NCBI GenBank assembly: GCA_002401655.1
Contig: NVTT01000001.1
Coordinates: 62,702-82,668, forward strand
Reading direction: 5' to 3'
Source: Gammaproteobacteria bacterium
GTDB lineage: Bacteria; Pseudomonadota; Gammaproteobacteria; Enterobacterales; Kangiellaceae
Length of the DNA stretch: 19,967 nt
Part shown: positions 338-15,797 of the stretch, one piece after another
Layout of the letters: every line of letters starts with the position of its first letter
Numbering within the stretch: position 1 is the stretch's first letter
Translations under genes and position numbers: made by a program
The notes under the pieces: generated by a model
Seen by the model: the letters and a program-made list of their open reading frames with translations, nothing else
Databases searched by the model: none
What the model was told of the DNA's origin: nothing

Positions 338-2680
338 TTAGAAATTATATCTAAACCCAAGAGCCCAGTTTCGTTTGGTTCTTGGCGCTAAATCTTTTAT
401 AAATGACCCGTGATCTCTAATTTCTTCGTTTAGTAAGTTCTTTCCTTTCAAAAATAGATACCAGTCACTTGAGCGATTAGATATTCGATAGGCAAATTCG
501 AGGTTAACTAAATCAAATGCTGGAGTGGCTAATTCATTTTCACCTACATCATTTTGTGCTTCATTTTTACTCCAAACTAAATCAGTAGTAAAATCTTCGT
601 AATTGTATACAAGATTAAAGCCGATTTTATTAGCTGGAATTCTAGGTAGATTCTCATCGCTATTTAGTTTAGCAACCAAATAATCGGCAAAGACTTCTAT
701 GTCTATTTGGTGTTTATTAAATTTAGCTAGAGAGCTTGTTAATTTAAATTCTGCGCCATAATAGTTAGCATCTTTTTGTTTGTAACAGATTAAACTGAGT
801 TCATCTTCTACAGCTTGCTCTATTGCCAATCCATTTGAATTTTCTGTAGATAAAACACACTCATCATCTATTACAACACTTTGTGCAAAGATATAGTCTG
901 TAAATTGATTATAAAACAGATTAATTTCTCCGCTAAAGCTCTTGTCTTTACCGAATGCTTCTTCGAAGCGATATGAGAAGTCTAGATTATTAGAATATTC
1001 CTTAGTTAAGTTAGGGTTTCCAATTTCGAAAGTGCCGCTGGCTAGATGGGGGCCAAAAGAAAAATACTCTTCAACGCTTGGGAATCGTACATTATGGGAA
1101 AAGTTTAACGCTAACTTATTATGTTTTTTAATGGTATAAACACTACCGACAGAATAATTTACCCCATTTTCTGAACGTTTAACTCCTGAGTCTAAAGTAA
1201 TATCTTGTTGTTCAAAACGCAGGCCTAATTCCCATTTTATTGAGTCAAAATGTTTTTCTTCTAACCAAAATAATGCCTTTGAATTGGTTGTAGATTTTGG
1301 AATAAATGCCTCCTCACCTATCGCTGAAAAATCACGCGATGTCATCTGTATTCCAGCAACCCCACTCCAGTCTAAATAAGGTTTGTGTTTAATATAACTC
1401 TTCAATTCATTGGCTTGATTCTCAAACCTTGTACCGATGGCTTCGCCTTCAAATTCTATGTGTTGGTAATCAGTATTTGCATAACCAACAAACAATGAGT
1501 CTAACGCACCTATGGATAGATCGAACTGGCTTTGAAAATGAACTGTCGATTGCTCCATGTCGATATAGACGTCTTCTTCACCATCCACTACATCACCTCC
1601 ATGCTCACTATGACCAGGTAGCCCATATTGTTTTTCAATAAAACTAACCGATAGACCAGCATAACCATCATCAAAAATGAAACTAGAACCAAGACTACCC
1701 CCCATAGTATTGCTATAGCTGTTTGATAATATTGACTCTTGGTGAAATTCAGATGTATCTTCGTCTTCTAGAGAAAGTTGAGCAAATGACTCGGCAGATA
1801 CGGGTATCTTTATATTACCTGTCTCATTTCTAAAACCATCAATATGCCATGTCCAATCGTTAACACCATTGTTTAATGTAAAAACAGATGCCTTTTCCTG
1901 TGTCGCACTATCACCCAAACGCACTTCAATACCGCCAGTTAATTCGTCTACTGGTGATGTTTGAATTTTATTATCAACGGTATTTATAACACCACCAATA
2001 GCACCGCTACCGTATAATAAGCTAGCAGGACCTTTAACTACTTCAATTTGTTGTAATAATAAAGGCTCTATACCGACATCATGATCGCTGCTGGTTGTTG
2101 ATGCATCTTGCACTCTCATTTGGTTATTCGTAACCATTACTCGTCCCGCACTCAATCCTCGAATAACCGGTCGTGCGACGGCAGGGCCAAAAGAAGAAAA
2201 GCTTAAGCCAGGTTCTAGCTGTAATATTTCACCTAACGTCGATGCGCGCTTGCTGATTAATTCTTCTCCTGAAATAATGGCGATCGGCGTTGCCATATCT
2301 AGAGAGGTATGTTCGAGAGGGTTAGCGTGAATAATAATTTTATGATCAGGTTCTTCAATTTTCGAAATTAGTAATGGTGAGTTACGTGGATAGTCTGATC
2401 CGTCATCAATATCTATATAGTGGTGAAAATGCTCATATTTTCCAGCTTCAATATCTAATAGGTATTGGCCACAGTCCAAATCAAACTTCACAATACCAAA
2501 TTGATCGCTGGTTTTACTGAGTTTTAATTGGTCAATTTTTACTAAAGCTTTTATTAGTGGTTTGCTGTAACTATCAACGACTAACAAATGAACGGATTTT
2601 GCATTTGAATAAGTTGAAAATGATGAGATTGATATAAGGCAAAAAATAAGATGCCAATTTTTGAATTGAAATTTGTTCAT
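338..2680 (-). CDS. TonB-dependent outer-membrane receptor, ZnuD-like (probable zinc uptake)
   Basis: A 780-residue outer-membrane receptor. The start chosen is the ATG at 2680-2678, because GGGAA lies 6 bases before it and it opens directly into a signal peptide (residues 1-27, ending SNA). The longer reading frame would begin at a TTG at 2731 and bury that signal. Domains in order: a carboxypeptidase-regulatory-like beta sandwich (about 28-95), a plug starting HANPLEH (118) with the RPVIRG box at 170-175 and a GPASLLYGSGAIGGVIN segment, then a 22-strand-type barrel ending in RYNF with the expected terminal Phe. The plug and the loop YGLPGHSEHGGD (352-363) closely resemble the ZnuD zinc-receptor subfamily, whose equivalent loop is His-rich. 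Zinc as substrate is therefore a reasoned inference, not proven. Two cysteines in a late extracellular loop could form a disulfide. A small secreted protein lies 129 bp upstream on the same strand and probably shares the transcript. Confidence 0.9.
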   Translation of the reverse strand: MNKFQFKNWHLIFCLISISSFSTYSNAKSVHLLVVDSYSKPLIKALVKIDQLKLSKTSDQFGIVKFDLDCGQYLLDIEAGKYEHFHHYIDIDDGSDYPRNSPLLISKIEEPDHKIIIHANPLEHTSLDMATPIAIISGEELISKRASTLGEILQLEPGLSFSSFGPAVARPVIRGLSAGRVMVTNNQMRVQDASTTSSDHDVGIEPLLLQQIEVVKGPASLLYGSGAIGGVINTVDNKIQTSPVDELTGGIEVRLGDSATQEKASVFTLNNGVNDWTWHIDGFRNETGNIKIPVSAESFAQLSLEDEDTSEFHQESILSNSYSNTMGGSLGSSFIFDDGYAGLSVSFIEKQYGLPGHSEHGGDVVDGEEDVYIDMEQSTVHFQSQFDLSIGALDSLFVGYANTDYQHIEFEGEAIGTRFENQANELKSYIKHKPYLDWSGVAGIQMTSRDFSAIGEEAFIPKSTTNSKALFWLEEKHFDSIKWELGLRFEQQDITLDSGVKRSENGVNYSVGSVYTIKKHNKLALNFSHNVRFPSVEEYFSFGPHLASGTFEIGNPNLTKEYSNNLDFSYRFEEAFGKDKSFSGEINLFYNQFTDYIFAQSVVIDDECVLSTENSNGLAIEQAVEDELSLICYKQKDANYYGAEFKLTSSLAKFNKHQIDIEVFADYLVAKLNSDENLPRIPANKIGFNLVYNYEDFTTDLVWSKNEAQNDVGENELATPAFDLVNLEFAYRISNRSSDWYLFLKGKNLLNEEIRDHGSFIKDLAPRTKRNWALGFRYNF

Positions 2681-2686
2681 GATATT

Positions 2687-2691
2687 TTCCC
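2687..2691 (-). promoter_or_regulatory. Ribosome binding site that fixes the receptor start
   Basis: Read on the minus strand this is GGGAA followed by 6 bases and ATG. It favours the internal ATG at 2680 over the TTG at 2731, which would add 17 residues in front of an otherwise canonical signal peptide. Confidence 0.65.
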
Positions 2692-2809
2692 AAGTAAATA
2701 ATATTTTCAAGATTGACGGATAATCTATCAAGCCTGCTTCATTAAGCTTATGAGCTATAACTAAACTGTTACGGCTTCAAGTAAACTTTAAAGTGAATTT
2801 TAAAAATAT

Positions 2810-3091
2810 TTATTGCTTGGGAGGTGCCCGACTCAAATGATAGTGGGAATAATGCTGAAGCTTAATTGGTTGGTATTGAACAACTAAAATAACATGGGGG
2901 TTATTGAAAGAATAGAAAATGGGATAAGTATTGCTATCAATAAAATCATCAAGCAGTAGATGTGAGGTACAAAGCGATATATCACAATCATTTAAATGTG
3001 CTTCACTATATTCGTGAGCAACAGCTGACCCTACTTGGAGTAACGTAAGTAATAGAACTAGAAAGGCTATATATTTCTTAAACTTAAACAT
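2810..3091 (-). CDS. Small secreted His/Cys-containing protein, zinc-chaperone-like
   Basis: A 93-residue protein with a clear signal peptide (MFKFKK, then hydrophobic residues 8-20, cleavage after VGSAVA at about 25). The predicted mature part starts HEYSEAH and contains a close Cys pair within DCDISLC, further histidines (SHLLLD, HYSHYH) and a C-terminal RAPP motif. Its size, signal peptide, early His/Cys cluster and RAPP ending recall the small periplasmic proteins annotated in gammaproteobacteria as zinc-uptake-associated chaperones, often found beside ZnuD-type receptors. The gene sits 129 bp upstream of such a receptor on the same strand. Function is inferred from this context and residue pattern; binding of zinc is not shown. 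No Shine-Dalgarno sequence is evident before the ATG. Sure that it is a secreted protein, moderately sure of the metal role. Confidence 0.72.
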   Translation of the reverse strand: MFKFKKYIAFLVLLLTLLQVGSAVAHEYSEAHLNDCDISLCTSHLLLDDFIDSNTYPIFYSFNNPHVILVVQYQPIKLQHYSHYHLSRAPPKQ

Positions 3092-3106
3092 TTGGATTTT
3101 AGCTAG

Positions 3107-3130
3107 ATTGATATTATTTATATTGATATT
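3107..3130. repeat. Two direct ATTGATATT repeats upstream of the metal-uptake pair
   Basis: ATTGATATT occurs at 3107-3115 and 3122-3130, spaced 15 bases start to start, just upstream of the small secreted protein gene. The position suits an operator, but the sequence does not match the Zur box known from Escherichia coli, and the whole stretch is very AT-rich, so chance is possible. Confidence 0.25.
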
Positions 3131-3240
3131 TTTCGATTTTACAAGTTATTTTTAATTAATACAATGAATAAAGTGTTTCAATTTATTGTCTTTAAATTAA
3201 TATCCCCTTTAAGCCTAAATGCTTTTTACCTTGTTTTGAG

Positions 3241-3264
3241 TTAAGATTATATTAATTATCTTAA
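3241..3264. repeat. Inverted repeat just before the yaiI ribosome binding site
   Basis: Arms TTAAGAT (3241-3247) and ATCTTAA (3258-3264) flank a 10-base AT-only spacer, ending immediately before the GTAGG that precedes the yaiI ATG. It could be an operator or a weak 5' UTR hairpin. No partner regulator is visible. Confidence 0.3.
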
Positions 3265-3278
3265 GTAGGTCTTTTGTA

Positions 3279-3725
3279 ATGAAAATTTGGGTTGATGCCG
3301 ACTCCTGTCCTGTTGTAATAAAAGATATTTTGTTTAAAGCCGCGATTCGAACTAATACAGAATTAACACTCGTTGCCAACCAAAACATAAGTCATCCCCA
3401 ATCACCTTTGATTAAAATGATGCAAGTATCATCAGGATTCGATGTGGCGGATGATGAGATTGTTAGGTTGGTTGGGGCAGGTGATATCGTAATCACTAGT
3501 GATATTCCACTTGCCGCTGAGGTCGTTGACAAAGGTGCTATAGCGCTGAGTTCAAGAGGCGAATTACATACGCCCGATAATATACGAGCGCGGTTAAATA
3601 TGAGAGACTTTTTAGATACCATGCGTGCCAGTGGTGAACATACGGGAGGGCCTCCACCGTTAAATCAAGCGGATCGCCAATCCTTCGCTAATCATCTAGA
3701 TCGAATTTTGTCGAAGGCTAAATAA
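3279..3725 (+). CDS. yaiI: YaiI/YqxD family protein (UPF0178, DUF188)
   Basis: A 148-residue protein that matches the UPF0178 family end to end; the Escherichia coli member is about 150 residues. Conserved features visible are the opening [12 protein letters not shown] with paired Asp residues 6 and 8, the strand [12 protein letters not shown] with another Asp, the SSRGELHT turn, and the C-terminal segment [24 protein letters not shown] typical of the family. The fold is related to PIN-like nucleases by its acidic pattern, but no biochemical activity is firmly established for the family, so no function is assigned. The ATG is preceded by AAGTAGG at good spacing. It stands alone, divergent from the metal-uptake pair and 163 bp before moaB on the same strand. 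Confidence 0.93.
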
Positions 3726-3888
3726 GCTAAACGTAAGCAAGTTGACTTGTATCATTCAATAGCTTTATTTAATTGTAGGACAAGCGAATAGTTTTTACTT
3801 CACGATGAATTCGCAATACACTAGGTGCTTAGCGAATTTGCATAACTAAATAATTTAACACTTCAAATTAAAAAGAGCCAGATAAGTA

Positions 3889-4410
3889 ATGTCCACTTTA
3901 GTCGAATCAAATAAGATACTCAAAATTGCCGTTTTAACCGTTTCAGATACTCGAAATTTTGAAACCGATAAATCCGGTGCTTACTTAGTAGAACAAATAG
4001 AAAGTGCTGGGCATGAGTTAGCTAAGCATAAAATCGTTATTGATGATATCTATCAAATAAGAGCGTGTCTATCTCAGTGGATTGCCAGTGATTCGATACA
4101 AGCGGTGATTATTACCGGAGGAACAGGATTTTATGGACGGGATTCTACGCCTGAAGCTATTATGCCGTTATTTGATAAACAGATGGAAGGTTTTGGTGAA
4201 TTGTTTCGTTCAATTTCATTTTCTGAAATCGGTAGTTCAACGATTCAGAGTAGAGCGCTTGGTGGTCTTGCTAATAACACCGTTATTTTTTCACTGCCTG
4301 GCTCAACTGGAGCTTGTAGAACAGCTTGGACAAAAATAATTAAAGAGCAATTAGATGGCGATTTTAAACCGTGTAATTTTGTTAAATTATTACAAACCGG
4401 AATACACTAG
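3889..4410 (+). CDS. moaB: Molybdenum cofactor biosynthesis protein B
   Basis: A 173-residue protein of the MoaB/MogA family. These proteins bind molybdopterin and, in MogA, adenylylate it before molybdenum insertion; the precise role of MoaB in gammaproteobacteria is less certain. The sequence follows Escherichia coli MoaB closely: ILKIAVLTVSDTR at the N-terminus, the nucleotide-binding loop ITGGTG (75-80), the acidic position Asp85 followed by TPEA, the EGFGELFR and STIQSRALGG segments, and SLPGSTGACRTAW (135-147). Length is normal. The four family landmarks being intact argues for a working protein. No other molybdenum cofactor gene is in the window. It is convergent with the hydrolase gene, leaving only 25 bp between the stops. 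Confidence 0.93.
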   Translation: MSTLVESNKILKIAVLTVSDTRNFETDKSGAYLVEQIESAGHELAKHKIVIDDIYQIRACLSQWIASDSIQAVIITGGTGFYGRDSTPEAIMPLFDKQMEGFGELFRSISFSEIGSSTIQSRALGGLANNTVIFSLPGSTGACRTAWTKIIKEQLDGDFKPCNFVKLLQTGIH

Positions 4411-4435
4411 CATATTTATTTTTAGTCATTCAATT

Positions 4436-5269
4436 TTAAAAATTACGCTTAGCCCACCCAACAATGGTAGAAATTAACCACTCCTTGTCTTTTTGAAGAA
4501 TGAAAGTGTGATCGCTTTTTTTATTATGTTCTACTTTAATTTTGTCTTCTGAAAATAAATCGCCAATAGCTTTTTTAAATTGATGTTTATAATTGTAAAA
4601 CATATACCAACCACCTGTAAAAATTACTAAAAATTTCGATCCTCTATTTAGTGTTTGCGATAACTTATTTTCAAATACAGATTTTTCTGGAAAGATCATT
4701 TTATAATTCATAGTAACATCTGATTTATTAAGTCGAGATATTTTGACATCTTTTTTAACGATAAATGGTAGAAATTTACTAACTAGATTTCTCCAACTAT
4801 TAGAATTGGTTAAACGTAAATACAATTTTTTAAAGTGAAATTTTGCTGTGGGATAAGCATATCCGTCGATTGGAATAACACCCTTAATACGTTCATCACT
4901 AAATGCTATTTCATAAGCATTATCAGCTCCTGTACAAATTCCACAAACCACAAATTGAGACACACCCGTACTCTCTTGTAGATAATCCATTGCATCAATA
5001 ATATCTTGATTAGTATTTTCTTTTAGACTTAAACTATTTTGTTTGGCTAAACTATCTCCTTTTCCGGATAAATCCATTCTTAAAGAAGTGAATTGTTGTT
5101 TTGCTAGTTCACGTGCGGTTGCTACGTAAATTCGAAAAGGGCCTACTCGATGCAATAAACCTGAATTCACAAAAATAAATATAGGTTTATCCTTTTGAAT
5201 CGATTCAGGTGAAGATAAGATCCCAATTAAATTTTGATTGTCACCAAATTGAATTATTTTTTCGTTCAT
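4436..5269 (-). CDS. Alpha/beta hydrolase with Cys at the nucleophile elbow, partner of the peptide synthetase
   Basis: A 277-residue cytoplasmic alpha/beta hydrolase without a signal peptide. Landmarks: the oxyanion-side segment NSGLLHRVGPFRIYV (35-49), RMDLSGKGDS (64-73), the nucleophile elbow GICTG (110-114) with Cys112 where most relatives have Ser, and the late KSDHTF with probable catalytic His254. Cys elbows also occur in dienelactone hydrolases and, as I recall, in exosortase-associated hydrolases, so it may be an active cysteine hydrolase. The start ATG overlaps the synthetase stop in an ATGA arrangement, which argues for translational coupling and joint function. Likely roles are release or editing of the product tethered to the synthetase, or processing of a precursor; the substrate is unknown. 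Base composition matches its neighbours. The fold call is firm, the role inferred. Confidence 0.85.
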   Translation of the reverse strand: MNEKIIQFGDNQNLIGILSSPESIQKDKPIFIFVNSGLLHRVGPFRIYVATARELAKQQFTSLRMDLSGKGDSLAKQNSLSLKENTNQDIIDAMDYLQESTGVSQFVVCGICTGADNAYEIAFSDERIKGVIPIDGYAYPTAKFHFKKLYLRLTNSNSWRNLVSKFLPFIVKKDVKISRLNKSDVTMNYKMIFPEKSVFENKLSQTLNRGSKFLVIFTGGWYMFYNYKHQFKKAIGDLFSEDKIKVEHNKKSDHTFILQKDKEWLISTIVGWAKRNF

Positions 5270-8200
5270 TTTAAAAGCTCTTTACAAATATGGGAGATAA
5301 TTGTTTGAGGGGCAACAGACGTCTCAATCTGCTCGGTATCTGTCCACGATAGTGACGTATCAAAGGTGTCAGAGTTGTTGAATTTATCTGATGCACTATT
5401 ATTATGTTGTTGTTTATTGTTAGAGAAAATAACGTGGTGCTTGCTTTGCATTTCTTTTGACCAATCTGTTGACTTTATATTCTGCAGCTCTTGTAGTAGT
5501 TGCTCTGAATAATTAAAACCAATTAATTCACTTTTATCACATTCGTTTGAGTCGCGTTTAATGTAAAATCTATCCTTATCAACTAACATTTCTCTGTGCA
5601 TTGTTTTTAGACTTGCAAGATTTGATTCGCCATCGATAATCGGATCCCAGTTTATAATAGTGCCGATATCCGTTCTGTTTGCCGCTGCTTTATTGGCTAA
5701 GTTAGCGCCTAAGCGTAAACCCAAAATAGAAACTTCATTTAGTCCAGACTTGCTTTTCAATTGTTCAATGGCGTCATTAATATTATGAGTCCAAATATCC
5801 ATATTGCAATCAATTGCATTACCATCGGAATCTCCAGTACCAAAATAATCAAAACGTAAAACGTGAAAGCCTAAATCGGTTAATCGTTTGGTTAATAGTT
5901 TAAAGCATCTAAAAATACGAAGATATTCTTGCCCTGTTGGGTAACAAAGAAGGATTGCTTGTTCTTTCTTAGATGACTGCTTGCTAGGAGCATGACCTGT
6001 TGGCGCATGACTTGTTGGCTTATGGTAATACGCAAATAAATGTTTATTTAACGATCGGATAAAGAAAGGGGTCGCTTTATCTCCATCGTTTGATGCTATT
6101 TGCTTTTTCTCAGACGGCTTAATTTTTTCTGACTTTAATTGAGGATGTTGCGATTCCAATTCACTGGCAAGTTGAGCTAAGTTTAAGGAAACTAACATTC
6201 TTGGATTCGATTTGAATTGCAGTTCTCGCTCCAAGCCTGAAATAACTTGCATCATCAACAGGGAGTCGCCACCAATATCAAAAAAGTTATCATACAAACC
6301 TACTTGATTGATATTCGGCAACGTTAACCATATTTTTGCAATTTTATTTTGTGCATTGGTTTCAAGTGGAATAACATCGCGCTCGTTATCATTATCTTCC
6401 ATATTAGGTTCAGGCAAAGCTTTTCGGTTTATTTTGCCATTAGCTGTCATCGGAATTTCATCCAACTGGATATAATGTTGAGGTAACATATAGTCAGGTA
6501 GAGATTGTTTAAGTGAAGAACGGATCAGTGATGCGTTTAAATTTGTGTCAGTAAAAGGAACGTAGTAAGCAATTAATTGTTTGTTTTTATTTTCATCTTC
6601 ATGGACGTTGATGATACCTTGTTCAATTTCTTCTATCTTGAGAAGCGCACTTTCAACTTCACCGACTTCAATTCGAAATCCACGAATTTTCACTTGATCG
6701 TCGGCTCTATCACGATACTCTAATAATCCATCTTCTCTAAACCTAACTAAATCGCCTGTTTTGTATAATTTGCTCGCGGAGTTATTTGAGAAAGGATCGG
6801 CAATAAATTTTTCTTCGGTCATTTCAGGTTTTCCGAGATAACCTCTAGCTAATCCTACCCCGCCCATATGAAGTTCACCAGTTACGCCTAAAGCAACGGG
6901 TTGCATATTCTTGTCTAACACGTAGGCATATAAATTTTTGACCGGTAAACCAATCGGTGCTTCTTGCTCTCTATTCGTATTATCGGCGTTTAAGTCACAA
7001 TAACTACTGACGATGGTACATTCTGTTGGACCATAAGTGTTGATTAGCTTAGCTTCTATTTTGTCGGAGCCTTCTGTTTGTGTTGTCTTAACGCTTTCAA
7101 TCCAATTAGCAACCGCTTGAGGTTGAGCTCGCTCTCCGCCGATAATAACATTTCGAATAGAGGAGGGCAGTGTGAGTTTATCTTCAATAATCGAAGCGGT
7201 GATTTGATGCCAAAATGCCGTGGGTAAATCTAAAAATGTAATTTTTTCGCGTTCACAGGCTTTTAAAAATTCTTTAGCACTACCAAGCATAGAATCATCA
7301 GCGAGACAAAGAGTGCCTCCGCTAATCAATGTGGGATAAATTTCTTCACCGGCAGTATCAAAGCTAATGGATGCAAATTGCAACATTTTGTCTTGTTCAC
7401 AAAAACCAAAGGCTTCTTTTGCAGCAATGGTATAGTTAACGATAGACTGATGTTCAATCATGACACCTTTCGCATCTCCGGTTGACCCCGAGGTGTAGAT
7501 GACATAAGCAAGATTATTAGGCTTTGGATCGGGACATTCTGATAACTGTGATGAATCTAAATCGGTATTGTTAATTTCACTCCAATCAGAATCCAGTAAA
7601 ATGATTGAGCATTGGTGCGCGGGTAAATTGTCTAATAGTTTCTTTTGTGTCAGTAAAAATTGAATACCAGAATCTTTGATCATGTAATCTAATCGTTCAT
7701 TGGGATAAGCAGGATCAAGAGGAACATAACCACCGCCGGCTTTTAATATGGCTAACATCGCTACAATCATATCCGGATGTTTGCTCATAGATAAACCAAC
7801 TGGCGCATCTATTTGTACGCCTTTCAGTTTTAAATAAGCTGAAAGCTTTTCGACTCGCTCTAATAATTCTTTGTAACTGTAACTCACATCTTGATTGTAA
7901 ACCGCAATATTATCAGGTGTTAATTTTGCCTGTTGCTCAAATAATTGATGCAAGCAAACATCGGGTATTTCAAATCCCTTTTGAGCTCTAAATGGCCCGT
8001 TGATTAACTGGTTTTCTTTATCGGTTAAAATATTAAAGTCAGTGATTGACCCCGTCGGATTGTCAATAAAGGCATCGATACATTTAAAGAAATGTTCAAT
8101 CGCTCTTTCGCGAGTTTCTTCATCAAATACGCCCACATTAAAATCAAAGGCAATGGTTAAAGTGCCTGTACCATCAAAATCATGGATTTGAATGGCTAAA

Positions 8201-9354
8201 GGCTCATGGGAATACCAAGCGCCAGTGTGTAACCAATGCAATGACATCGGCATTCCTGCAAAGGGTGGATAAGAAGCGTTGTTATAATTTATTGCTACGT
8301 CATACGCCCTATTATTCATCGGGTTACCAGGCGCATAGCGATAGTGACGCATTACTTCCATACTGGTACGCTTTGTCTTTTTATACAGCGACTCAAAGGT
8401 ATCTTCGGCAGTGGCACTGACTCTTAACGGTGCCGTTTCCATAAAAAAGCCAACCGTATTTTTATCATCGGGTGTGGCTCTATTGTGATATAAAGTCCCT
8501 AACGCTAAATCTTCATTACCCGTTATTCGATAGAGGTATGCTAGTAAGCAGGTTGAAATTAACTGAAAAGTGGATAGATGTGGAGACAAGGATTTAAATG
8601 GTTTTTGTTTACATAGTGCTTTAATCGCATTAGTTCTATCAACACCTAAATCTCGAGTCATTCTAATCGCTTTATTGACGCCGTGATCACGAGAAGTACG
8701 TCCATAAAAATTAAGTGTATCTAAAGGTTCAGAAAGCACCTTTTCCCAGTGTGCCTTAGACTGCTGATGGGCTTTTGATTCTCTATATTCTTGCTCTCTA
8801 TCAACATATCCCTCAAAAGAAGGAAAGTCAGGCAATTCTTCTATATCTTCATTAAAACTCTTTTCATAAAATTCAGAAACATATCGATAAACCAACGCAG
8901 TTGACCAACCATCACAAATAAGGTGATGCTGGCACCAATACCACATCACCTGATTATCACCTAGTTTGACTAAAACAGAATCAAAGAGTCTTTTCTCTAG
9001 ATCAAATATTTCTTTACAACGTGGTGTTGCCCATTCATCAAAGGCCTTTTGAGGATCTAGATTATTACTGAAGTCCAAAAATTCAACCTGATAGTCAAGC
9101 TTATCTAGAACGACCCGCTGTGGTACTCCGTTATTGAGTTTTATAATGGTTCTTAATGCATCGGCTTTGTTAACAACTTGTTGGAATGCGTGAGCAAAAC
9201 GTACAGGATCAACGTCTCCTTGAATAGTCAAAGCCATGGGCATATTGAAAAAAGGGGTATCGGGCTCTAGGTTTTGTCCAATCCAAAACCAAAGTTGGTT
9301 TTTTGGTAAATTGGATAGATGATAAACATCTTCTGTTTGATGTTCTTCTGTCAT
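5266..9354 (-). CDS. Single-module non-ribosomal peptide synthetase (C-A-T) with C-terminal alpha/beta-hydrolase-like domain
   Basis: A 1362-residue enzyme with one complete elongation module. The condensation domain (about 10-450) has the catalytic HHLICDG at 143-149. The adenylation domain (about 465-985) has YTSGSTGDAKG (620-630), FDTAGEE (665-671), NTYGPTE (772-778), YKTGD (864-868), the QVKIRGFR box (887-894) and NGKINRKALP (972-981), so it should activate an amino or related acid. The carrier domain has FFDIGGDSL (1024-1032), with Ser1031 for the phosphopantetheine arm. A linker follows, then a hydrolase-like domain (about 1096-1362) with FDYFGTGDSDG but an elbow reading GLRLGA (1212-1217), Arg in place of Ser. 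By manual alignment to GrsA the substrate pocket reads D-T-E-D-I-G-T-I-V-K. AAGGAG lies 8 bases before the ATG. There is no loading module, standard thioesterase, MbtH or transporter nearby; the downstream hydrolase overlaps by 4 bp. Confidence 0.93.
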   Translation of the reverse strand: MTEEHQTEDVYHLSNLPKNQLWFWIGQNLEPDTPFFNMPMALTIQGDVDPVRFAHAFQQVVNKADALRTIIKLNNGVPQRVVLDKLDYQVEFLDFSNNLDPQKAFDEWATPRCKEIFDLEKRLFDSVLVKLGDNQVMWYWCQHHLICDGWSTALVYRYVSEFYEKSFNEDIEELPDFPSFEGYVDREQEYRESKAHQQSKAHWEKVLSEPLDTLNFYGRTSRDHGVNKAIRMTRDLGVDRTNAIKALCKQKPFKSLSPHLSTFQLISTCLLAYLYRITGNEDLALGTLYHNRATPDDKNTVGFFMETAPLRVSATAEDTFESLYKKTKRTSMEVMRHYRYAPGNPMNNRAYDVAINYNNASYPPFAGMPMSLHWLHTGAWYSHEPLAIQIHDFDGTGTLTIAFDFNVGVFDEETRERAIEHFFKCIDAFIDNPTGSITDFNILTDKENQLINGPFRAQKGFEIPDVCLHQLFEQQAKLTPDNIAVYNQDVSYSYKELLERVEKLSAYLKLKGVQIDAPVGLSMSKHPDMIVAMLAILKAGGGYVPLDPAYPNERLDYMIKDSGIQFLLTQKKLLDNLPAHQCSIILLDSDWSEINNTDLDSSQLSECPDPKPNNLAYVIYTSGSTGDAKGVMIEHQSIVNYTIAAKEAFGFCEQDKMLQFASISFDTAGEEIYPTLISGGTLCLADDSMLGSAKEFLKACEREKITFLDLPTAFWHQITASIIEDKLTLPSSIRNVIIGGERAQPQAVANWIESVKTTQTEGSDKIEAKLINTYGPTECTIVSSYCDLNADNTNREQEAPIGLPVKNLYAYVLDKNMQPVALGVTGELHMGGVGLARGYLGKPEMTEEKFIADPFSNNSASKLYKTGDLVRFREDGLLEYRDRADDQVKIRGFRIEVGEVESALLKIEEIEQGIINVHEDENKNKQLIAYYVPFTDTNLNASLIRSSLKQSLPDYMLPQHYIQLDEIPMTANGKINRKALPEPNMEDNDNERDVIPLETNAQNKIAKIWLTLPNINQVGLYDNFFDIGGDSLLMMQVISGLERELQFKSNPRMLVSLNLAQLASELESQHPQLKSEKIKPSEKKQIASNDGDKATPFFIRSLNKHLFAYYHKPTSHAPTGHAPSKQSSKKEQAILLCYPTGQEYLRIFRCFKLLTKRLTDLGFHVLRFDYFGTGDSDGNAIDCNMDIWTHNINDAIEQLKSKSGLNEVSILGLRLGANLANKAAANRTDIGTIINWDPIIDGESNLASLKTMHREMLVDKDRFYIKRDSNECDKSELIGFNYSEQLLQELQNIKSTDWSKEMQSKHHVIFSNNKQQHNNSASDKFNNSDTFDTSLSWTDTEQIETSVAPQTIISHICKELLK
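5990..6019 (-). repeat. 15-bp tandem duplication in the synthetase linker
   Basis: On the plus strand GCATGACCTGTTGGC (5990-6004) is followed directly by GCATGACTTGTTGGC (6005-6019), one mismatch. In the protein this gives the repeated pentad in TSHAPTGHAP (residues 1114-1123), inside the low-complexity linker between the carrier and hydrolase-like domains. It is in frame and probably a slippage product. Confidence 0.75.
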
Positions 9355-9362
9355 CTAGGATA

Positions 9363-9368
9363 CTCCTT
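9363..9368 (-). promoter_or_regulatory. Strong ribosome binding site of the peptide synthetase
   Basis: AAGGAG on the minus strand, 8 bases before the ATG at 9354-9352. It confirms that the protein begins directly with the condensation domain, with no further domain upstream. Confidence 0.75.
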
Positions 9369-9403
9369 TAAATCCCTATAATTAGAGGTTGTTGGTTTTG
9401 TTT

Positions 9404-9510
9404 TTATGATTGTAACTATATTTATGGTTGTAACTATAGTAGCGACAGACAAAAAGATAAAGTATAAACACGCTCTTTGTGGAAAGCAATTTTAATCTAT
9501 GTAACTATTA
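9404..9510. promoter_or_regulatory. Direct repeats in the divergent synthetase/peptidase promoter region
   Basis: TTATGATTGTAACTATA (9404-9420) and TTATGGTTGTAACTATA (9422-9438) differ at one base and are spaced 18 bases start to start. A partial third copy, TATGTAACTATTA, lies at 9498-9510 near the DUF885 peptidase start. The shared core GTAACTAT thus occurs three times within 97 bases. The second copy runs into the small palindrome ACTATAGT (9433-9440). This pattern suits a transcription factor operator controlling the synthetase, the peptidase or both. No regulator gene is adjacent. Confidence 0.5.
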
Positions 9511-9538
9511 AGTAAGAATCAAACTATCAGGATTAAAC

Positions 9539-11347
9539 ATGAATTTGACCACCTTTAATCATAAAAACCAGTCTAAATCACTAAAACTATTATTAAAATT
9601 TTGTTTAATTAGTTTTTCAATAGGTTTCTCTATAAGCCAATCAATGGAAAACCTTAATTTTGATGAGAATCTGACGGAATTATTTGAAAAAGAGTGGCAA
9701 AGTCGGTTAAAAGACAATCCTGTTTCGGCTAATTCTTATGGTGATATGAGTGAACCTTCGGCTTTGATGGACGTATCTGAAAAAGCTTACTTAACAAGGT
9801 TAAAAAGCAATCGAAGTGTCTTGGCTAAATTAAAGGCAATTACTTATAAAAACCTGACGTCTGAAAATAGAATTAACTACGATATTTTTGAAAAGCAGAT
9901 TAGTTATAATATTAGCCAAATCGAATTTAAGACTTATCAACTGCCATTTCTAGCAGACTCAGGCTTTCATACCAGTATGTCTTGGCTGCCTAAGCAAGCT
10001 AAATTTGCTGATCTCGATAGTTACAACCATTATCTCGACAGACTTGAAAATATCCCTCAATTTTTTAATCAAAATATCGCAAATATGAATGCTGGTCTAA
10101 AAAGGGGCTATTCAATGCCTTCCGTTGTGATGCTCGGATTTACTGAGGTTATCCATCAGATTGGAAATAAAAAAGTTGAAGAATCAGAATTTTGGCAACC
10201 TTTTGTAAAACTACCGAAGCATTTTTCTAGTAGGGACGCTAAAAATATTAAAAAGCGAGCTAAAAAGGTTATTGGTAAAACACTACTCCCGGCTTACCGA
10301 TCGTTAGCTGAATATTTTGAGAAACAATATATACCTAACACAAAACAATCATTGGGAGCTTATGACTTCCCCAATGGTGCAGAATATTATCAATCAGAAA
10401 TTGCTCACTACACAACAACTGATCTGACTGCTGAACAAATCCATAAACTTGGTCTAACCGAAGTGGCTAGAATTAAGGCTGAAATGGATGAAATTATTAA
10501 AAAGCTAAAATTTAAAGGAGGCTTTAAAGCATTTTTAAAGTTCTTAAGAGAATCACCACAATTTTATGCCAAAACGCCTGAAGAGTTATTGAAGGAGGCA
10601 TCCTATATAGCAAAAAAGATGGATGGTCAGTTACCTAAATTTTTCACTAAATTGCCAAGACAACCTTATACGGTTGAAGCTGTTCCTGAGGCAATTGCGC
10701 CTAAATATACAACTGGTCGTTACATTTCAGCGCCATTAGACAGCGATAGACCCGGTACCTATTGGGTGAATACCTATGCTTTGGATAAAAGACCTCTTTA
10801 TGTATTAGAAAGTTTAACTTTGCATGAAGCTGTTCCCGGGCATCATTTACAGGGAGCACTTAATCAAGAGTTAAGTAATTTACCAAATTTTAGACGTTAC
10901 TCTTACATTTCGGCGTTTGGGGAGGGGTGGGCACTTTATTGTGAAAAATTAGGTCTTGAGGCCGGTTTTTATAAAGATCCTCATAGTGATTTTGGTCGGT
11001 TAAGTTATGAGATGTGGCGTGCGGCCAGGTTAGTTATTGATACGGGCATTCATGCGATGGGTTGGACTAGAGAAAGAGCGATCAAACTGTTGTCAGAAAA
11101 CTCGGCACTATCGATCCACAATATTACTACCGAAGTTGATCGCTATATCAGCTGGCCTGGTCAAGCTCTGAGTTACAAAATAGGTGAACTTAAAATATTA
11201 GAGCTACGCAAGAAAGCGGAAATAGCGTTAGGCGAGAAGTTTGATATACGTCATTTTCACGATGCGATATTAGCGAATGGCTCGATCCCTTTGGATGTTT
11301 TAACAATGCAGATGAATGATTTTATAAATACAGTGAAAAATGATTAA
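9539..11347 (+). CDS. Secreted DUF885 family peptidase-like protein
   Basis: A 602-residue DUF885 (COG4805) protein. An N-terminal signal or anchor is likely: basic residues, then a hydrophobic stretch at about 17-32, with no lipobox around Cys22, so it probably acts in the periplasm or outside the cell. The body has the family's metallopeptidase-like motif HEAVPGHH (429-436), followed by FGEGWALYCEKLG (460-472), DTGIHAMGWT (501-510) and WPGQALSYKIG (539-549), all expected of DUF885. The family resembles zinc peptidases and several members are thought to act on peptides, but the substrate here is unknown. AGGA lies 7 bases before the ATG. It is divergent from the peptide synthetase and shares its repeat-bearing promoter region. 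That could mean co-regulation or simple adjacency; nothing in the sequence decides. Length is normal for the family. Confidence 0.92.
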   Translation: MNLTTFNHKNQSKSLKLLLKFCLISFSIGFSISQSMENLNFDENLTELFEKEWQSRLKDNPVSANSYGDMSEPSALMDVSEKAYLTRLKSNRSVLAKLKAITYKNLTSENRINYDIFEKQISYNISQIEFKTYQLPFLADSGFHTSMSWLPKQAKFADLDSYNHYLDRLENIPQFFNQNIANMNAGLKRGYSMPSVVMLGFTEVIHQIGNKKVEESEFWQPFVKLPKHFSSRDAKNIKKRAKKVIGKTLLPAYRSLAEYFEKQYIPNTKQSLGAYDFPNGAEYYQSEIAHYTTTDLTAEQIHKLGLTEVARIKAEMDEIIKKLKFKGGFKAFLKFLRESPQFYAKTPEELLKEASYIAKKMDGQLPKFFTKLPRQPYTVEAVPEAIAPKYTTGRYISAPLDSDRPGTYWVNTYALDKRPLYVLESLTLHEAVPGHHLQGALNQELSNLPNFRRYSYISAFGEGWALYCEKLGLEAGFYKDPHSDFGRLSYEMWRAARLVIDTGIHAMGWTRERAIKLLSENSALSIHNITTEVDRYISWPGQALSYKIGELKILELRKKAEIALGEKFDIRHFHDAILANGSIPLDVLTMQMNDFINTVKND

Positions 11348-11354
11348 GACTAAA

Positions 11355-11374
11355 ACTATTTTTTATAAAATAGT
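11355..11374. repeat. Short AT-rich hairpin after the DUF885 gene
   Basis: Arms ACTATTTT (11355-11362) and AAAATAGT (11367-11374) with a 4-base loop, eight bases past the stop codon. It is a weak stem and may assist termination or protect the 3' end of the mRNA. Confidence 0.4.
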
Positions 11375-11400
11375 AGGAGCTTAAAAAAATGAAACCAAGC

Positions 11401-11422
11401 GTTCGAATTTAAAAGTTCGAAC
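11401..11422. repeat. GTTCGAA/TTCGAAC hairpin in the convergent gap
   Basis: Perfect 7-bp arms at 11401-11407 and 11416-11422 with an 8-base loop. It has no U-tract and lies between the AT hairpin and the main terminator palindrome. Confidence 0.4.
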
Positions 11423-11431
11423 TTAAGAACC

Positions 11432-11459
11432 AATAAAGCCTGCAATTGCAGGCTTTATT
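11432..11459. terminator. Bidirectional intrinsic terminator
   Basis: A perfect 28-bp palindrome whose left half is AATAAAGCCTGCAA. It forms a G+C-rich stem core GCCTGC/GCAGGC with A-rich and T-rich ends on both strands. It lies between the convergent DUF885 and HD-GYP-like genes, so it can stop transcription from both sides. Confidence 0.85.
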
Positions 11460-11478
11460 TAAATTCAAATATATTATT

Positions 11479-12783
11479 TTAGGAAACTTTTAGGAATGAC
11501 AACCATTTATTTTTAGAAAATAATCGGTCATGTAGTTCTCTAGCATCAATATCAACACTTGAACTTCTTAAACTTTTCTCAATCTGTAAAGGCATACCAA
11601 ATCGATCGGTTGGGTTGTCAATTAAGTTAACCACTTTTGGCTTAACCAATGTTGTATTCATGCTATCTTTAACGATAACTACTTTAGGTCTTAAACGAGC
11701 ATTGGAGGGTTGTTCCATAACTATGCCAATAGCATTGTTAGTCAACTTAACCAAACTGCCCGTTGGATATATCCCAATCGCTTGAATAAATGATTCGACA
11801 AGCTCTGTTTGAAATGCATTTCCGCGTTCATTATATAAATTTGAAATAGCTTCTACAGGTGTTAATGCTTCTTTACCTGGTAAAGGATTGATAAGTTCTT
11901 CATAGTATTGAACTAAACCGCAAACCCTAGCTAAAAATGGGATTCTATTTCCTACTAAATTTCTTGGATAACCTTTGCCATTATTTCTTTCGCAATAGCT
12001 AGAGAGTATGTAATTAACTTGATGGCTAGTAGAGAACATTTTTTCAGTTTCTTCCAAAGTCAAAGCCACATGTTCTTGGTAAGTCTCTGTTTCTTCAGCT
12101 GTGAGTTCTCCAAAAAGAAGTTCTCGGGGTAATTTACATTTACCGATTGGTGCTAACAAAAGTGCAGTACCAATATCTCTAAGATCATGTTTTGATAAAC
12201 CTAAGTGTCTACCGAAAATAATGCCCCAAATCGCACTTCTTACCGCTTGCTCATGTAATGCTTTATTTTCGGTATTAACACGACATAACCATGCCAATGC
12301 ATCTGGATTTCTTACAACGCTTTTTACCATTTCTGAAGATGCGGCTCTTATCCCAGCAATGTTAACGTAACCATTTTGCATCATATCTCTAAAAATTACA
12401 GACATTTGACCACTGACCTGTGAGAATAATTCTCCTACTTGAATCACTTCATTTTTAAGTTTGGTGCTATTTTCGTAATGCTCTACAGAAGGTTTAAAAC
12501 GAGCTTTTTCTGCCATTAACCGTTTCGTTTTAGGATCTAGCTTGTTAACTTTACTTGGCTTAATTGGCGTAAGCGTTAATTGTGACTGTACATCTATTTT
12601 GCTAAGAAATTGATCAACATAAACTTTGGTGCAATATACCGCCAACTGTTCAAGTTGTTCTTGTTTAGTAATATGAAATCCCTGAATAGGGAATGGAGTT
12701 TGAACCCAAGGAACATCTAAACGAGACACATACATGCCAATTAGCAAGTTATGTACTGGTATTTCCTGTGTTGTTAAATGCAT
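11479..12783 (-). CDS. DUF3391 plus degenerate HD-GYP domain protein, probably not an active phosphodiesterase
   Basis: A 434-residue cytoplasmic protein. Residues about 5-57 form a DUF3391 domain (IPVHNLLIGMYVSRLDVPW, ending in KVYVD), the usual partner of HD-GYP c-di-GMP phosphodiesterases. The following domain aligns with HD-GYP, but the key metal ligands are gone: the HDIGK box reads APIGK (211-215), and the HHERxDGxGYP box reads SYCERNNGKGYP (262-273), keeping only GYP. The tail after IGIYPTGSLV (about 337-346), with NNAIGIVMEQ and RLRPKVVIV, is the normal C-terminal extension. A plausible reading is a non-catalytic sensor or scaffold in c-di-GMP signalling or nucleotide binding; activity loss is inferred from residues only. 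GAGG lies 9 bases before the ATG. A GGDEF cyclase is encoded about 3 kb away. Confidence 0.85.
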   Translation of the reverse strand: MHLTTQEIPVHNLLIGMYVSRLDVPWVQTPFPIQGFHITKQEQLEQLAVYCTKVYVDQFLSKIDVQSQLTLTPIKPSKVNKLDPKTKRLMAEKARFKPSVEHYENSTKLKNEVIQVGELFSQVSGQMSVIFRDMMQNGYVNIAGIRAASSEMVKSVVRNPDALAWLCRVNTENKALHEQAVRSAIWGIIFGRHLGLSKHDLRDIGTALLLAPIGKCKLPRELLFGELTAEETETYQEHVALTLEETEKMFSTSHQVNYILSSYCERNNGKGYPRNLVGNRIPFLARVCGLVQYYEELINPLPGKEALTPVEAISNLYNERGNAFQTELVESFIQAIGIYPTGSLVKLTNNAIGIVMEQPSNARLRPKVVIVKDSMNTTLVKPKVVNLIDNPTDRFGMPLQIEKSLRSSSVDIDARELHDRLFSKNKWLSFLKVS

Positions 12784-13175
12784 CTTCAGGTACCTCGGAT
12801 AAACAATTCATCCCGAATAATAAATTGAAAATTCCCTTTCACGTTGCATACAGGATATCTTTTTCTAGAAAAGATTGAAGGAACCTGTTCACGTTTTATT
12901 CATTTATGGCTTTAACAGTAGGGTTTCCGGGCATTTACACTGTTAAAAATCAACCTGAAAATTTAAACCTTTTAGCGGTCAAATTGTACAAAAAACAACC
13001 AGTTATAATGGCTGATTTTGAAAAGCGTTAAAAAAATAGCGCAGTTAAAGTAGAGTATAGACAGAATTTCAATAAAGTTAAATTATTTTCAATAAATTGG
13101 TAATATTTACATATTTTGAATTTAAGTCATAAACACATCAATTAATGGACACATCGATTTACTCAGAAACACAGA
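12784..13175. other. 392-bp intergenic region upstream of the HD-GYP-like gene
   Basis: An AT-rich gap between the start of the HD-GYP-like gene and the 3' end of cmoB. It must hold the promoter of the former and the end of the pepE-cmoA-cmoB transcript. The only clear structure is the 9-bp inverted repeat at 12911-12947, annotated separately. A 41-codon plus-strand frame at 12906-13031 lacks a ribosome binding site and family features, so I do not call it a gene. I saw no tRNA, small RNA or strong terminator. Confidence 0.6.
12911..12947. repeat. Inverted repeat TTTAACAGT/ACTGTTAAA
   Basis: Perfect 9-bp arms at 12911-12919 and 12939-12947 with a 19-base loop, about 130 bp upstream of the HD-GYP-like start. 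It could be an operator for a dimeric regulator or a hairpin ending the cmoB-side transcript. The long loop and lack of a U-tract make a simple terminator less likely. Confidence 0.45.
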
Positions 13176-14159
13176 TTATGGTTTTTTTGCGATTAAAGTT
13201 GCTCTTAATGGCGCTGGATAACCCTCCACTGTCAAATTTTCATTATCAGGCATCAAAAAGTTTTCCAACGAATGAAATGTCATCCAGTCTGTTGCTCTCT
13301 GCTCTTCCGTGGATGTTTTTTCAACATTAATGCACCTTACATCTTTAAACCCGCATTTTTTGAGCCATAAAATTAGTGCGTCTACAGAGGGCAAAAACCA
13401 AACATTTCTCATTTGCGCGTAACGGCCCTTAGGAACCAATACCTGTTGATCATTGCCTTCAATCACCAAAGTCTCAAGTATGAGCTCACCTCCCTTTAAT
13501 AAGAGATCTTTCAATTGGAACAACATTTCAACGGGTGATTTGCGATGATATAAAACGCCCATACAAAATACCGAATCGAATCCACAGTTTTTAGTCTCCT
13601 TGGGCATATCCTCTATTCCTAACGGAAGTAAATGACAATTATTAGTCTGGATATATTTTTGCATGATGGCAAATTGAGCGAGAAACTTTTGTGATGGATC
13701 AACTCCCAACACAAATTGGGCGCCTTCACCTAACATTCTCCAGCAATGGTAACCATTGCCACAACCAACATCGAGAATTGTTTTCCCTTTTAATGGTGAA
13801 ATGTGGGACTTAATGCGATCCCACTTCCAATCTGAACGCCATTCCGTATCGATATGAATATCAAAAAGTTGGTAAGGTCCTTTTCTCCAAGGATGAAGCT
13901 GTTTTAACTTGTCTGTCAGATCGATTAATTGATTTTCGGAGAGTTTTTTGTTTTCGTCCAAATTGATTTGTACTTGTGATTCTAAATCGAAGGTTGTTTT
14001 TCCAAATTCAGGAAGCGATTGAACTAATTCTTGCCATTCTTGAACTTCACCATGAGTATAATTTTTGCACTTATCCTGAACTGAGTCTACAAAGTGACTC
14101 TGCCAAAATGCCACTTTTGAGTTCTTTATATCTTGCTGAAATTGTTTAATTTGAATCAT
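13176..14159 (-). CDS. cmoB: tRNA U34 carboxymethyltransferase
   Basis: A 327-residue enzyme that transfers the carboxymethyl group of carboxy-S-adenosylmethionine to 5-hydroxyuridine at tRNA position 34, giving cmo5U, which widens wobble decoding. It aligns with Escherichia coli CmoB along its length. Landmarks: HPWRKGP (89-95), IDTEWRSDWKWDR (103-115), the SAM-binding-type DVGCGNGY (130-137), MGVLYHR (200-206), ETLVI (229-233), RYAQMRNVWF (246-255) and VEGYPAP (311-317). The start aligns with the E. coli start (MIQIKQF against MIDFGNF). It is nevertheless preceded by a Shine-Dalgarno-free AT-rich stretch, so translation may depend on the unstructured leader. It lies 56 bp downstream of cmoA, which makes its cofactor, and is the last gene of a pepE-cmoA-cmoB unit. 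Confidence 0.96.
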   Translation of the reverse strand: MIQIKQFQQDIKNSKVAFWQSHFVDSVQDKCKNYTHGEVQEWQELVQSLPEFGKTTFDLESQVQINLDENKKLSENQLIDLTDKLKQLHPWRKGPYQLFDIHIDTEWRSDWKWDRIKSHISPLKGKTILDVGCGNGYHCWRMLGEGAQFVLGVDPSQKFLAQFAIMQKYIQTNNCHLLPLGIEDMPKETKNCGFDSVFCMGVLYHRKSPVEMLFQLKDLLLKGGELILETLVIEGNDQQVLVPKGRYAQMRNVWFLPSVDALILWLKKCGFKDVRCINVEKTSTEEQRATDWMTFHSLENFLMPDNENLTVEGYPAPLRATLIAKKP

Positions 14160-14999: not shown

Positions 15000-15797
15000 C
15001 TAATTAGAAGAACGATTTAATAGTGCGCTAACGTCTGTATCGGTCTGGATAGCCTGTTTCCCTCTAGAAGAAAATAAGTATGCTAACGTCTCTTTTTGCT
15101 CGCCTTCTGTATAAATAATGCGGTTTTCTCTGCAAATTAATGCAGTACCCTCTGGGATTGCAATCACTTGGCTATCAGGATTTGCAATTAAAAACTCTTC
15201 TAATCGCTGTTGCCGAGTTTCGCCATTGTGGCTCGATGGGGTTGCTTCTATGTAATGGGGATTTAATTGGCAAGGGATTAGGTTCAGTGCGTTAAATGAA
15301 GGTGGCTGAACAATGGGCATATCGTTGGTGGTTTTTATTGATGCCCCTGCGATATTAGAACCTGCACTCCAGCCTATATATGGTTTACCTACTTTTACTT
15401 CATCATGGATTAATTTTATCAGGTTTAAATTATATAATTGATTCAATAAAGAAAAAGTATTTCCACCGCCAACGAGTAAACAATCCGCATCTTTAATTTG
15501 CTGATGTTGTTGAGCGATGATATTTGTATCGGAACTAGCATTTTTTGCGCCATGAGTTGCACTATGATCTGCACTATGATGTATTGATGTTAGCTCTATA
15601 TTTAATGGCTTTAACGCTTCAATTACCATGGATTCATATTCATCGAATTTGATAGAAACCCCTGCAAACGGGATAAATAAAATGCGAATGGTCTTTTTTG
15701 TTTTATTCGCGTTCAAAAACTCGTCAATAAGGGGAATTGCATGGGACAAATAACCCGTCTTTCCAACACGAGAGCTACTTAATAGAAGAAGATTCAT
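15000..15797 (-). CDS. pepE: Alpha-aspartyl dipeptidase (peptidase E, family S51)
   Basis: A 265-residue cytoplasmic serine peptidase that cleaves dipeptides with N-terminal aspartate. The catalytic elbow GWSAGSN gives Ser144; by alignment with Salmonella PepE (Ser120, Asp135, His157) the other members are Asp159 in TTNDMPI and His181 in LNPHY, all at a constant offset of 24. LVGGGNTFSLL (108-118) and NGETRQQRLEEF (191-202) are also conserved. The protein is longer than the roughly 229-residue enterobacterial enzyme, mainly through a hydrophilic His/Ser/Ala-rich insertion around residues 73-95 that includes a 12-bp tandem duplication in the DNA; the triad is untouched, so activity is expected. 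It is the first gene of pepE-cmoA-cmoB and is divergent from the diguanylate cyclase gene. Confidence 0.95.
   Translation of the reverse strand: MNLLLLSSSRVGKTGYLSHAIPLIDEFLNANKTKKTIRILFIPFAGVSIKFDEYESMVIEALKPLNIELTSIHHSADHSATHGAKNASSDTNIIAQQHQQIKDADCLLVGGGNTFSLLNQLYNLNLIKLIHDEVKVGKPYIGWSAGSNIAGASIKTTNDMPIVQPPSFNALNLIPCQLNPHYIEATPSSHNGETRQQRLEEFLIANPDSQVIAIPEGTALICRENRIIYTEGEQKETLAYLFSSRGKQAIQTDTDVSALLNRSSN
15558..15581 (-). repeat. 12-bp tandem duplication within pepE
   Basis: On the plus strand TGCACTATGATC (15558-15569) is followed directly by TGCACTATGATG (15570-15581). It is in frame and encodes part of the His/Ser/Ala-rich insertion (HSADHSATH) that enlarges this PepE over its relatives. 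Confidence 0.8.

Follow-up and report, generated by a model that had tools for sequence, protein, structure and literature searches.

The closest described relatives of the two hydrolases considered here, one stand-alone and one fused to a synthetase, are the exosortase A-associated hydrolases 1 and 2 (TIGR03100 and TIGR03101), both curated as hypothetical equivalogs. In the literature that we searched (titles and starts of abstracts, mostly outside subscription journals), we found neither a tested function for these families nor a paper treating such hydrolases as carrier-protein enzymes. Likened to the stand-alone hydrolase by description, not by sequence, are the CmaE and SyrC aminoacyltransferases and the type II thioesterase LgnA, separate proteins acting on carrier-bound aminoacyl groups, for which an Arg-elbow partner is not mentioned in the pertinent passages of PMC8748450. 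Two further systems bear on the locus: the starter condensation domain of RzmA, part of the rhizomide enzyme, which uses acyl-CoA (PMC7804268), and the amino acid:carrier-protein (aa:CP) ligases, whose biological role was called unknown in a 2022 review (PMC9437257). Here, we analyze a 19,967-nucleotide stretch (the window) from a marine gammaproteobacterium of the Kangiellaceae, spanning positions 62702-82668 of contig C75 (NVTT01000001.1) in a 2.95-Mb, 75% complete assembly (G000). It carries a nonribosomal peptide synthetase (NRPS) with condensation (C), adenylation (A) and thiolation (T) domains fused to an alpha/beta hydrolase-like domain (H2), followed by the gene for a stand-alone alpha/beta hydrolase (H1). 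In the interpretation that we favor, with moderate confidence, these genes encode a module that forms an N-acyl amino acid and two hydrolases that together release or transfer this product.

A C-A-T module coupled to two hydrolases

The first-pass annotation of the window recorded a C-A-T module fused to a hydrolase-like domain and coupled to a second hydrolase, and the open reading frames (ORFs), domains and overlap agree with it. Condensation, AMP-binding and PP-binding domains follow in that order, all above their Pfam cut-offs (AMP-binding at residues 472-840, 281.1 bits; AMP-binding_C at 899-974, 28.2 bits), with the HHxxxDG motif and carrier Ser of an NRPS C-A-T module; the synthetase stop and the H1 start share the four bases ATGA in the ORF list and the sequence. 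HHxxxDG (residues 143-149) and Ser1031 (codon 6264-6262) are invariant across five aligned rows. A predicted-protein search recovered four synthetase orthologs (90, 88, 83 and 68% identical), which retain HHxxxDG, the nine A-domain pocket residues, Ser1031 and the Arg1214 of H2, and in the metagenome-assembled genome NORP56 (Kangiella sp.) both genes recur in matching surroundings, as judged from gene lengths and DNA match. Between the window and NORP56, the ratio of nonsynonymous to synonymous substitutions (dN/dS) is 0.08 for the whole NRPS (C 0.03, A 0.06, T 0.05, linker 0.47, H2 0.20) and 0.10 for H1. The existence of four orthologs and the low dN/dS thus indicate that the unit is not a product of chance. 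The sequence itself establishes its domains, active-site residues, pairing, conservation and place behind a carrier; that it is a two-gene biosynthetic unit we regard as reasonably probable.

The C domain is best matched among solved structures (PDB) by the RzmA starter C domain, if at only 105.6 bits, followed by bacitracin synthase 3 as the next kind (86.7 bits) and SrfA-C (66.8 bits); in this respect it resembles a starter C domain that uses acyl-CoA. In a relative, the internal C domain scored 371 bits with Txo2 and 73 with RzmA, and the first C domain of the same protein 287 and 59 bits, respectively. Since the window C domain best resembles a starter C domain, an upstream synthetase need not be assumed; of the earlier suggestion that either a donor made elsewhere or a partner synthetase feeds the module, the acyl donor is retained and the partner becomes dispensable. 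We think it likelier than otherwise that the module N-acylates its amino acid. The A-domain pocket code, read by motif (Table 1), is identical in the orthologs P0003-P0007, and the closest single solved A domain is ApnA A1 (469.4 bits). As Glu and Asp occupy the pocket positions that we take to be 239 and 278, the A domain probably takes an amino acid with a basic side chain.

The Pfam scan covered 14 of the 15 window ORFs (all except the 89-residue ORF at 12101-12370), and among these 14 there is no MbtH, phosphopantetheinyl transferase (PPTase), inner-membrane exporter or second synthetase; a TonB-dependent receptor (338-2731) does lie in the window. A PPTase-family match occurs in a 241-residue frame on contig C66 of the same assembly, and searches for MbtH in G000 and in a further genome (G001) did not find it. 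A second copy of window 3976-10519 occupies G000:C28:1-6544 (L002), with 98.3% identity over its whole length (97-100% across the first 5.5 kb and 86-89% across the final 750 bases); it is likely to be a strain allele, and the assembly would then contain a recombination edge.

Table 1. Features of the two-gene unit, in window positions
Feature	Position	Strand	Basis
C-A-T-H2 synthetase gene	5266..9354	-	1362 aa; ORF and Pfam domains
Condensation domain, aa 20-451	8002..9297	-	PF00668 230.5 bits; HHLICDG aa 143-149; starter-type by best solved match
Adenylation domain, aa 472-974	6433..7941	-	PF00501/PF13193; pocket DTEDIGTIV + Lys974
Thiolation (carrier) domain, aa 1004-1059	6178..6345	-	PF00550 31.2 bits, cut-off 20.8; Ser1031
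H2, alpha/beta hydrolase-like domain, about aa 1096-1345	5320..6069	-	TIGR03101 76.6 bits; Arg1214 at nucleophile elbow
H1, stand-alone alpha/beta hydrolase gene	4436..5269	-	277 aa; TIGR03100 89.1 bits; Cys in 127/131 H1 rows
Shine-Dalgarno-like AAGGAG, 5' of synthetase start	9363..9368 (9368-9363)	-	read off the sequence

Active sites of H1 and H2

The best NCBIfam matches of H1 and of the H2 piece (window 5266-6180) are TIGR03100 (hydr1_PEP) and TIGR03101 (hydr2_PEP), with scores (Table 1) below the curated cut-offs of 168.45 and 202.75 bits, respectively. By these matches H1 and H2 are distant relatives of the exosortase-associated hydrolases 1 and 2, by kinship and not by membership, much as the first-pass annotation had suggested from the Cys and Arg elbows; the order H2 then H1 is likewise shared. 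Unlike the exosortase A pair, the window proteins fall under both cut-offs, H2 is fused to an NRPS, and no exosortase was found in the genome: PF09721 had no match in G000, a weak negative at 75% completeness that agrees with the absence noted earlier, or in G001 (95% complete). Pfam Hydrolase_4 matches synthetase residues 1151-1243 (22.6 bits) and H1 (22.5 bits) under its cut-off of 27. A canonical NRPS thioesterase was rejected as a candidate, there being no PF00975 match at E<=0.001, an Arg at the elbow of H2 and a Cys at that of H1.

The H2 elbow reads GLRLG (Arg1214, codon 5715-5713) and the H1 elbow GICTG (Cys112, codon 4936-4934), H1 further possessing Asp135 and His254. Of 131 H1 rows, 127 have Cys at the elbow, 3 have Ser and 1 is gapped there, and the His is present in 123, with the remaining 8 gapped; across 87 H2 rows the elbow holds Arg in 84 and Gly, Lys and Cys once each, and as these rows were gathered by similarity with near-copies included, the counts describe conservation inside the families and not an unbiased rate. 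Natural H2-H1 fusions (8000 candidates scored, 1103 found) show the elbow Arg in 119 and the elbow Cys in all 120 of the 120 listed. The predicted H1 structure (predicted local distance difference test, pLDDT, 87.8; predicted TM-score, pTM, 0.84) places Cys112 between a strand (106-111) and a helix (113-124), and His254 after a strand (244-249). The natural fusion P0091 was predicted as a single compact body (pLDDT 91.9, pTM 0.91); the two domains should therefore pack against each other. Pairwise H1 distances track those of H2 (correlation r 0.74 over 70 pairs, with 0.13 as the best of 1000 shuffles).

In contrast to the exosortase-related H1, in which the catalytic acid follows beta-7, the window H1 lacks an acid at the aligned post-beta-7 place and has Asp135 directly after beta-6. 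Over 246 H1 rows (126 of the 131 and the 120 fused), the acid is found after beta-7 only in 180 (Asp/Glu), after beta-6 only in 60 (Asp), at both places in 2 and at neither in 4. That an acid is nearly always present at one of two places argues for H1 being a working Cys112-His254-Asp135 enzyme. A quick tree covering 100 of 124 H1 representatives placed all 31 beta-6 rows inside one supported set of 36 rows (98), which also holds 2 beta-7 rows, 2 with both and 1 with neither.

Some fusions depart from this pattern: those at L118 7598-9409, L119 1031-2815 and L120 8462-10285 have a Ser (GLSSG) in place of the H1 Cys, and a further H2-H1 fusion lies downstream of each. Another possible fusion partner is seen in P0160, a 993-residue H2-H1 relative with the source name ATP-grasp carboligase/hydrolase.

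In the mechanism that we propose, the starter-type C domain would accept an acyl group, with acyl-CoA or an acyl carrier protein (ACP) as the likeliest donor, and couple it to a single, probably basic amino acid that the A domain has loaded on T; the N-acyl-aminoacyl thioester would then be handed to a two-hydrolase offloading machine. H1 would attack with Cys112, assisted by His254 and Asp135, and pass the acyl group to water or to another acceptor. H2, with Arg1214 at the nucleophile position, may itself be non-nucleophilic and help by holding the carrier arm or the substrate and by docking H1 to T. The acyl donor, the amino acid, Cys as the nucleophile, the role of the Arg, the acceptor and the release are the parts of this scheme that we infer.

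The hydrolase pair behind carriers

An H1 match was found in 46 of 369 genomes in a class-level survey at E<=1e-15, from which all 51 places outside the window's own genome were fetched, and in 21 of 99 genomes in a family-level survey, which gave six further stretches. The 70 loci scanned (L029, L031-L045, L075-L128) hold 75 H2 and 74 H1 domains. H2 is followed by H1 on the same strand in 71 of the 75 cases, 15 of them within one ORF; all four H2 that lack an H1 come from L099 and L103, each of which has two adjacent matches, and the second of these may be a mis-scored H1. A carrier domain lies at most 1.5 kb upstream of 48 of the 75 H2 (in one ORF in 15), and many fused H2-H1 without an adjoining carrier have an ACP gene farther upstream in the stretch. 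A separate protein search found PP-binding (PF00550) in 23 of 25 H2-bearing proteins, in NRPS and polyketide synthase (PKS) contexts. Architectures include C-A-T-H2, A-T-H2, ketosynthase-acyltransferase-ACP-H2 (P0008, P0010), a reductive PKS module with H2 (P0023, named Anaerolineae), a protein with a second C domain read between T and H2 (P0011) and PF13480-H2-H1 fusions (P0014, P0018). The pair is thus not special to this unit and recurs with other NRPS, PKS, ACP and ligase contexts.

Among the 15 further loci L031-L045, an A-domain synthetase adjoins H2 and H1 in 12 (two congeners share one unit as L031/L034 and another as L032/L033); the hydrolase is thereby kept beside the synthetase in relatives, as expected. 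The synthetase of L043 is on the opposite strand from H2/H1, H1 stands alone in L037 and L039, and L045 has no NRPS. Pocket codes ahead of H2 vary (DILQLG.., DLTK.GEVG, DVWH.SL.., DIEH.TAV. and others; presumably Gly, Asn or Asp, and Ser), and the pair therefore follows the carrier and not one amino acid. In a 398-genome sample of the phylum, the best synthetase match in another genome is a module of the same C-A-T order (G557, L129; 34% identity, 643.7 bits, query 10-1069; pocket code DILQLGLIW), which differs in ending in a PF00975 thioesterase (80.0 bits, 1079-1180) where the window synthetase has H2. The place of the pair behind carriers and the canonical thioesterase in the same place of a related module make H1 and H2 testable as a release or transfer machine. 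As it needs only two proteins, the window unit lends itself to such a test, whose outcome would matter for exosortase-type clusters and aa:CP ligases.

Among these loci, L032 (G000:C66:1-20000) encodes at 1656-13846 a three-module NRPS with odd A-domain codes (DACQLALLA, VAWLTSLSN), followed by stand-alone H2, H1 and the PPTase-family match; the cluster is also present in NORP56 (L033). L031 (3570-14022) and L034 have C-A-T-H2 and H1 with an A domain that we take to be Gly-coded, and three acyl-CoA dehydrogenase-like genes lie near the unit in L031.

A further context is seen in Kangiellaceae and others, where fused H2-H1 occurs with an ACP (PRK07081, 109.3 bits, cut-off 72), a ligase resembling seryl-tRNA synthetase (aa:CP ligase, 429.3 bits, cut-off 357), an acyl-CoA dehydrogenase and DUF1839. 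Such operons in several genomes share H2-H1 with the window unit and differ from it in loading through an aminoacyl-tRNA synthetase-like ligase in place of an A domain; no aa:CP ligase was found in G000 or G001. The link of H2-H1 to these ligases exists but is partial. At L115 4029-7593, DUF1839 and a GH2-like 844-residue protein lie beside the aa:CP ligase and the H2-H1 fusion; PMC10318531 classifies DUF1839 as papain-like.

Whether H2-H1 is a general carrier-protein offloading or acyl-transfer system, operating in NRPS, PKS, exosortase-type ACP clusters and some aa:CP ligase operons, seems to us evenly balanced. On this general reading, a Cys hydrolase would be paired with an Arg-elbow pseudo-hydrolase in a previously unrecognized combination, the acid would have moved from beta-7 to beta-6 in the assembly-line clade, and the window unit would be the minimal self-contained form; if true, it would give the aa:CP ligases a downstream enzyme to test.

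Several points weigh against the mechanism and its generalization. The RzmA lead on which the starter reading of the C domain rests is 19 bits in a single ranking, and the CDA chains, presumably another starter C domain, scored only 48.5-48.7 bits, under several elongation-type domains. The code DTEDIGTIV was not found in the literature searched, so that the basic side chain is deduced from the pocket. Three H1 rows have Ser in place of Cys; the beta-6 rows, falling in one tree set, reflect one or few events and not 60; and descent alone may yield part of the correlation between H1 and H2 distances. The 71-of-75 pairing comes from loci chosen through an H1 match, in which H1 is present by construction, and 27 of the 75 H2 lack a carrier in the 1.5 kb upstream; the carrier profiles were made partly from the scanned loci, some of which are mutual orthologs. 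The search behind the 23 of 25 H2-bearing proteins reaches 0.55-1.75 times 1362 residues (about 750-2380) and favors fusions. Finally, the aa:CP ligase occurs in 27 of 398 genomes, and only 8 of these 27 loci have an H2-H1 fusion at a distance of about 10 kb or less.

Alternative roles and other window genes

The exosortase system is tied to exopolysaccharide, and its relatives of the window pair raise the alternative that H1 and H2 attach an (amino)acyl group to a glycan, a lipid or a polymer of the envelope and do not yield a free small molecule. Exosortase (PF09721) is present in 35 of 59 searched genomes with H1 and in 1 of 14 from the family of the window. The exosortase-type related loci share the Cys and Arg elbows; a separate small ACP gene precedes H2 in 21 loci (20 within 50 bases, overlaps included, and one at 123), and an exosortase is present in 20 of the 21 genomes concerned. 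Consistent with such decoration, L038, which we take to be a Ser-coded unit, adjoins genes for a sugar transferase and for polysaccharide export. A TIGR03100 protein is also listed for a gene in a Burkholderia exopolysaccharide cluster (PMC3584217). However, no polysaccharide or lipid gene was seen beside the window unit, and the NORP56 copy lies in the same surroundings; we regard decoration as unlikely here.

CmaE and SyrC use a Cys, as H1 is proposed to do, and H1/H2 could in the same manner move the (acyl-)aminoacyl group in trans to another carrier or synthetase, for instance the three-module NRPS on C66 of the same genome. CmaE carries its substrate between T domains and has homologs in the syringomycin and zorbamycin pathways (PMC8748450). 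The C66 cluster, however, has its own H2 and H1, and the surroundings of the window unit contain no additional carrier or synthetase gene, making a shuttle distinctly doubtful. Stand-alone hydrolases beside synthetases often edit, and H1/H2 might only clear misprimed T domains in the role of a type II thioesterase, with true release being spontaneous or due to another enzyme; against this, H2 is covalently attached behind T, where G557 has its canonical thioesterase, and Arg1214 is the same in five aligned orthologs, so we consider mere editing improbable. That the hydrolases are chance neighbors unrelated to the synthetase, as might be argued from both Hydrolase_4 matches lying under the cut-off, deserves next to no credence given the recurrent pairing, fusion and place behind carriers. 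We accordingly continue to prefer the two-hydrolase release or transfer machine behind an N-acylating module.

The synthetase is flanked by a divergent DUF885 gene (9539-11347), and on its other side the unit faces a convergent moaB-like gene ending at 4410. The TonB-dependent receptor has ZnuD as its best NCBIfam match (361 bits, cut-off 950) and a listed TTG start; it is preceded by a 93-residue ORF without a family match (2810-3091), and an ORF of equal length occupies the same place in NORP56. A Peptidase S51 family protein (15000-15797; 194.8 bits) adjoins a methyltransferase-like ORF and cmoB. An HD-domain (DUF3391) protein (11479-12783) and a response-regulator/PAS/GGDEF protein (16019-18697) are probably involved in cyclic di-GMP signaling.

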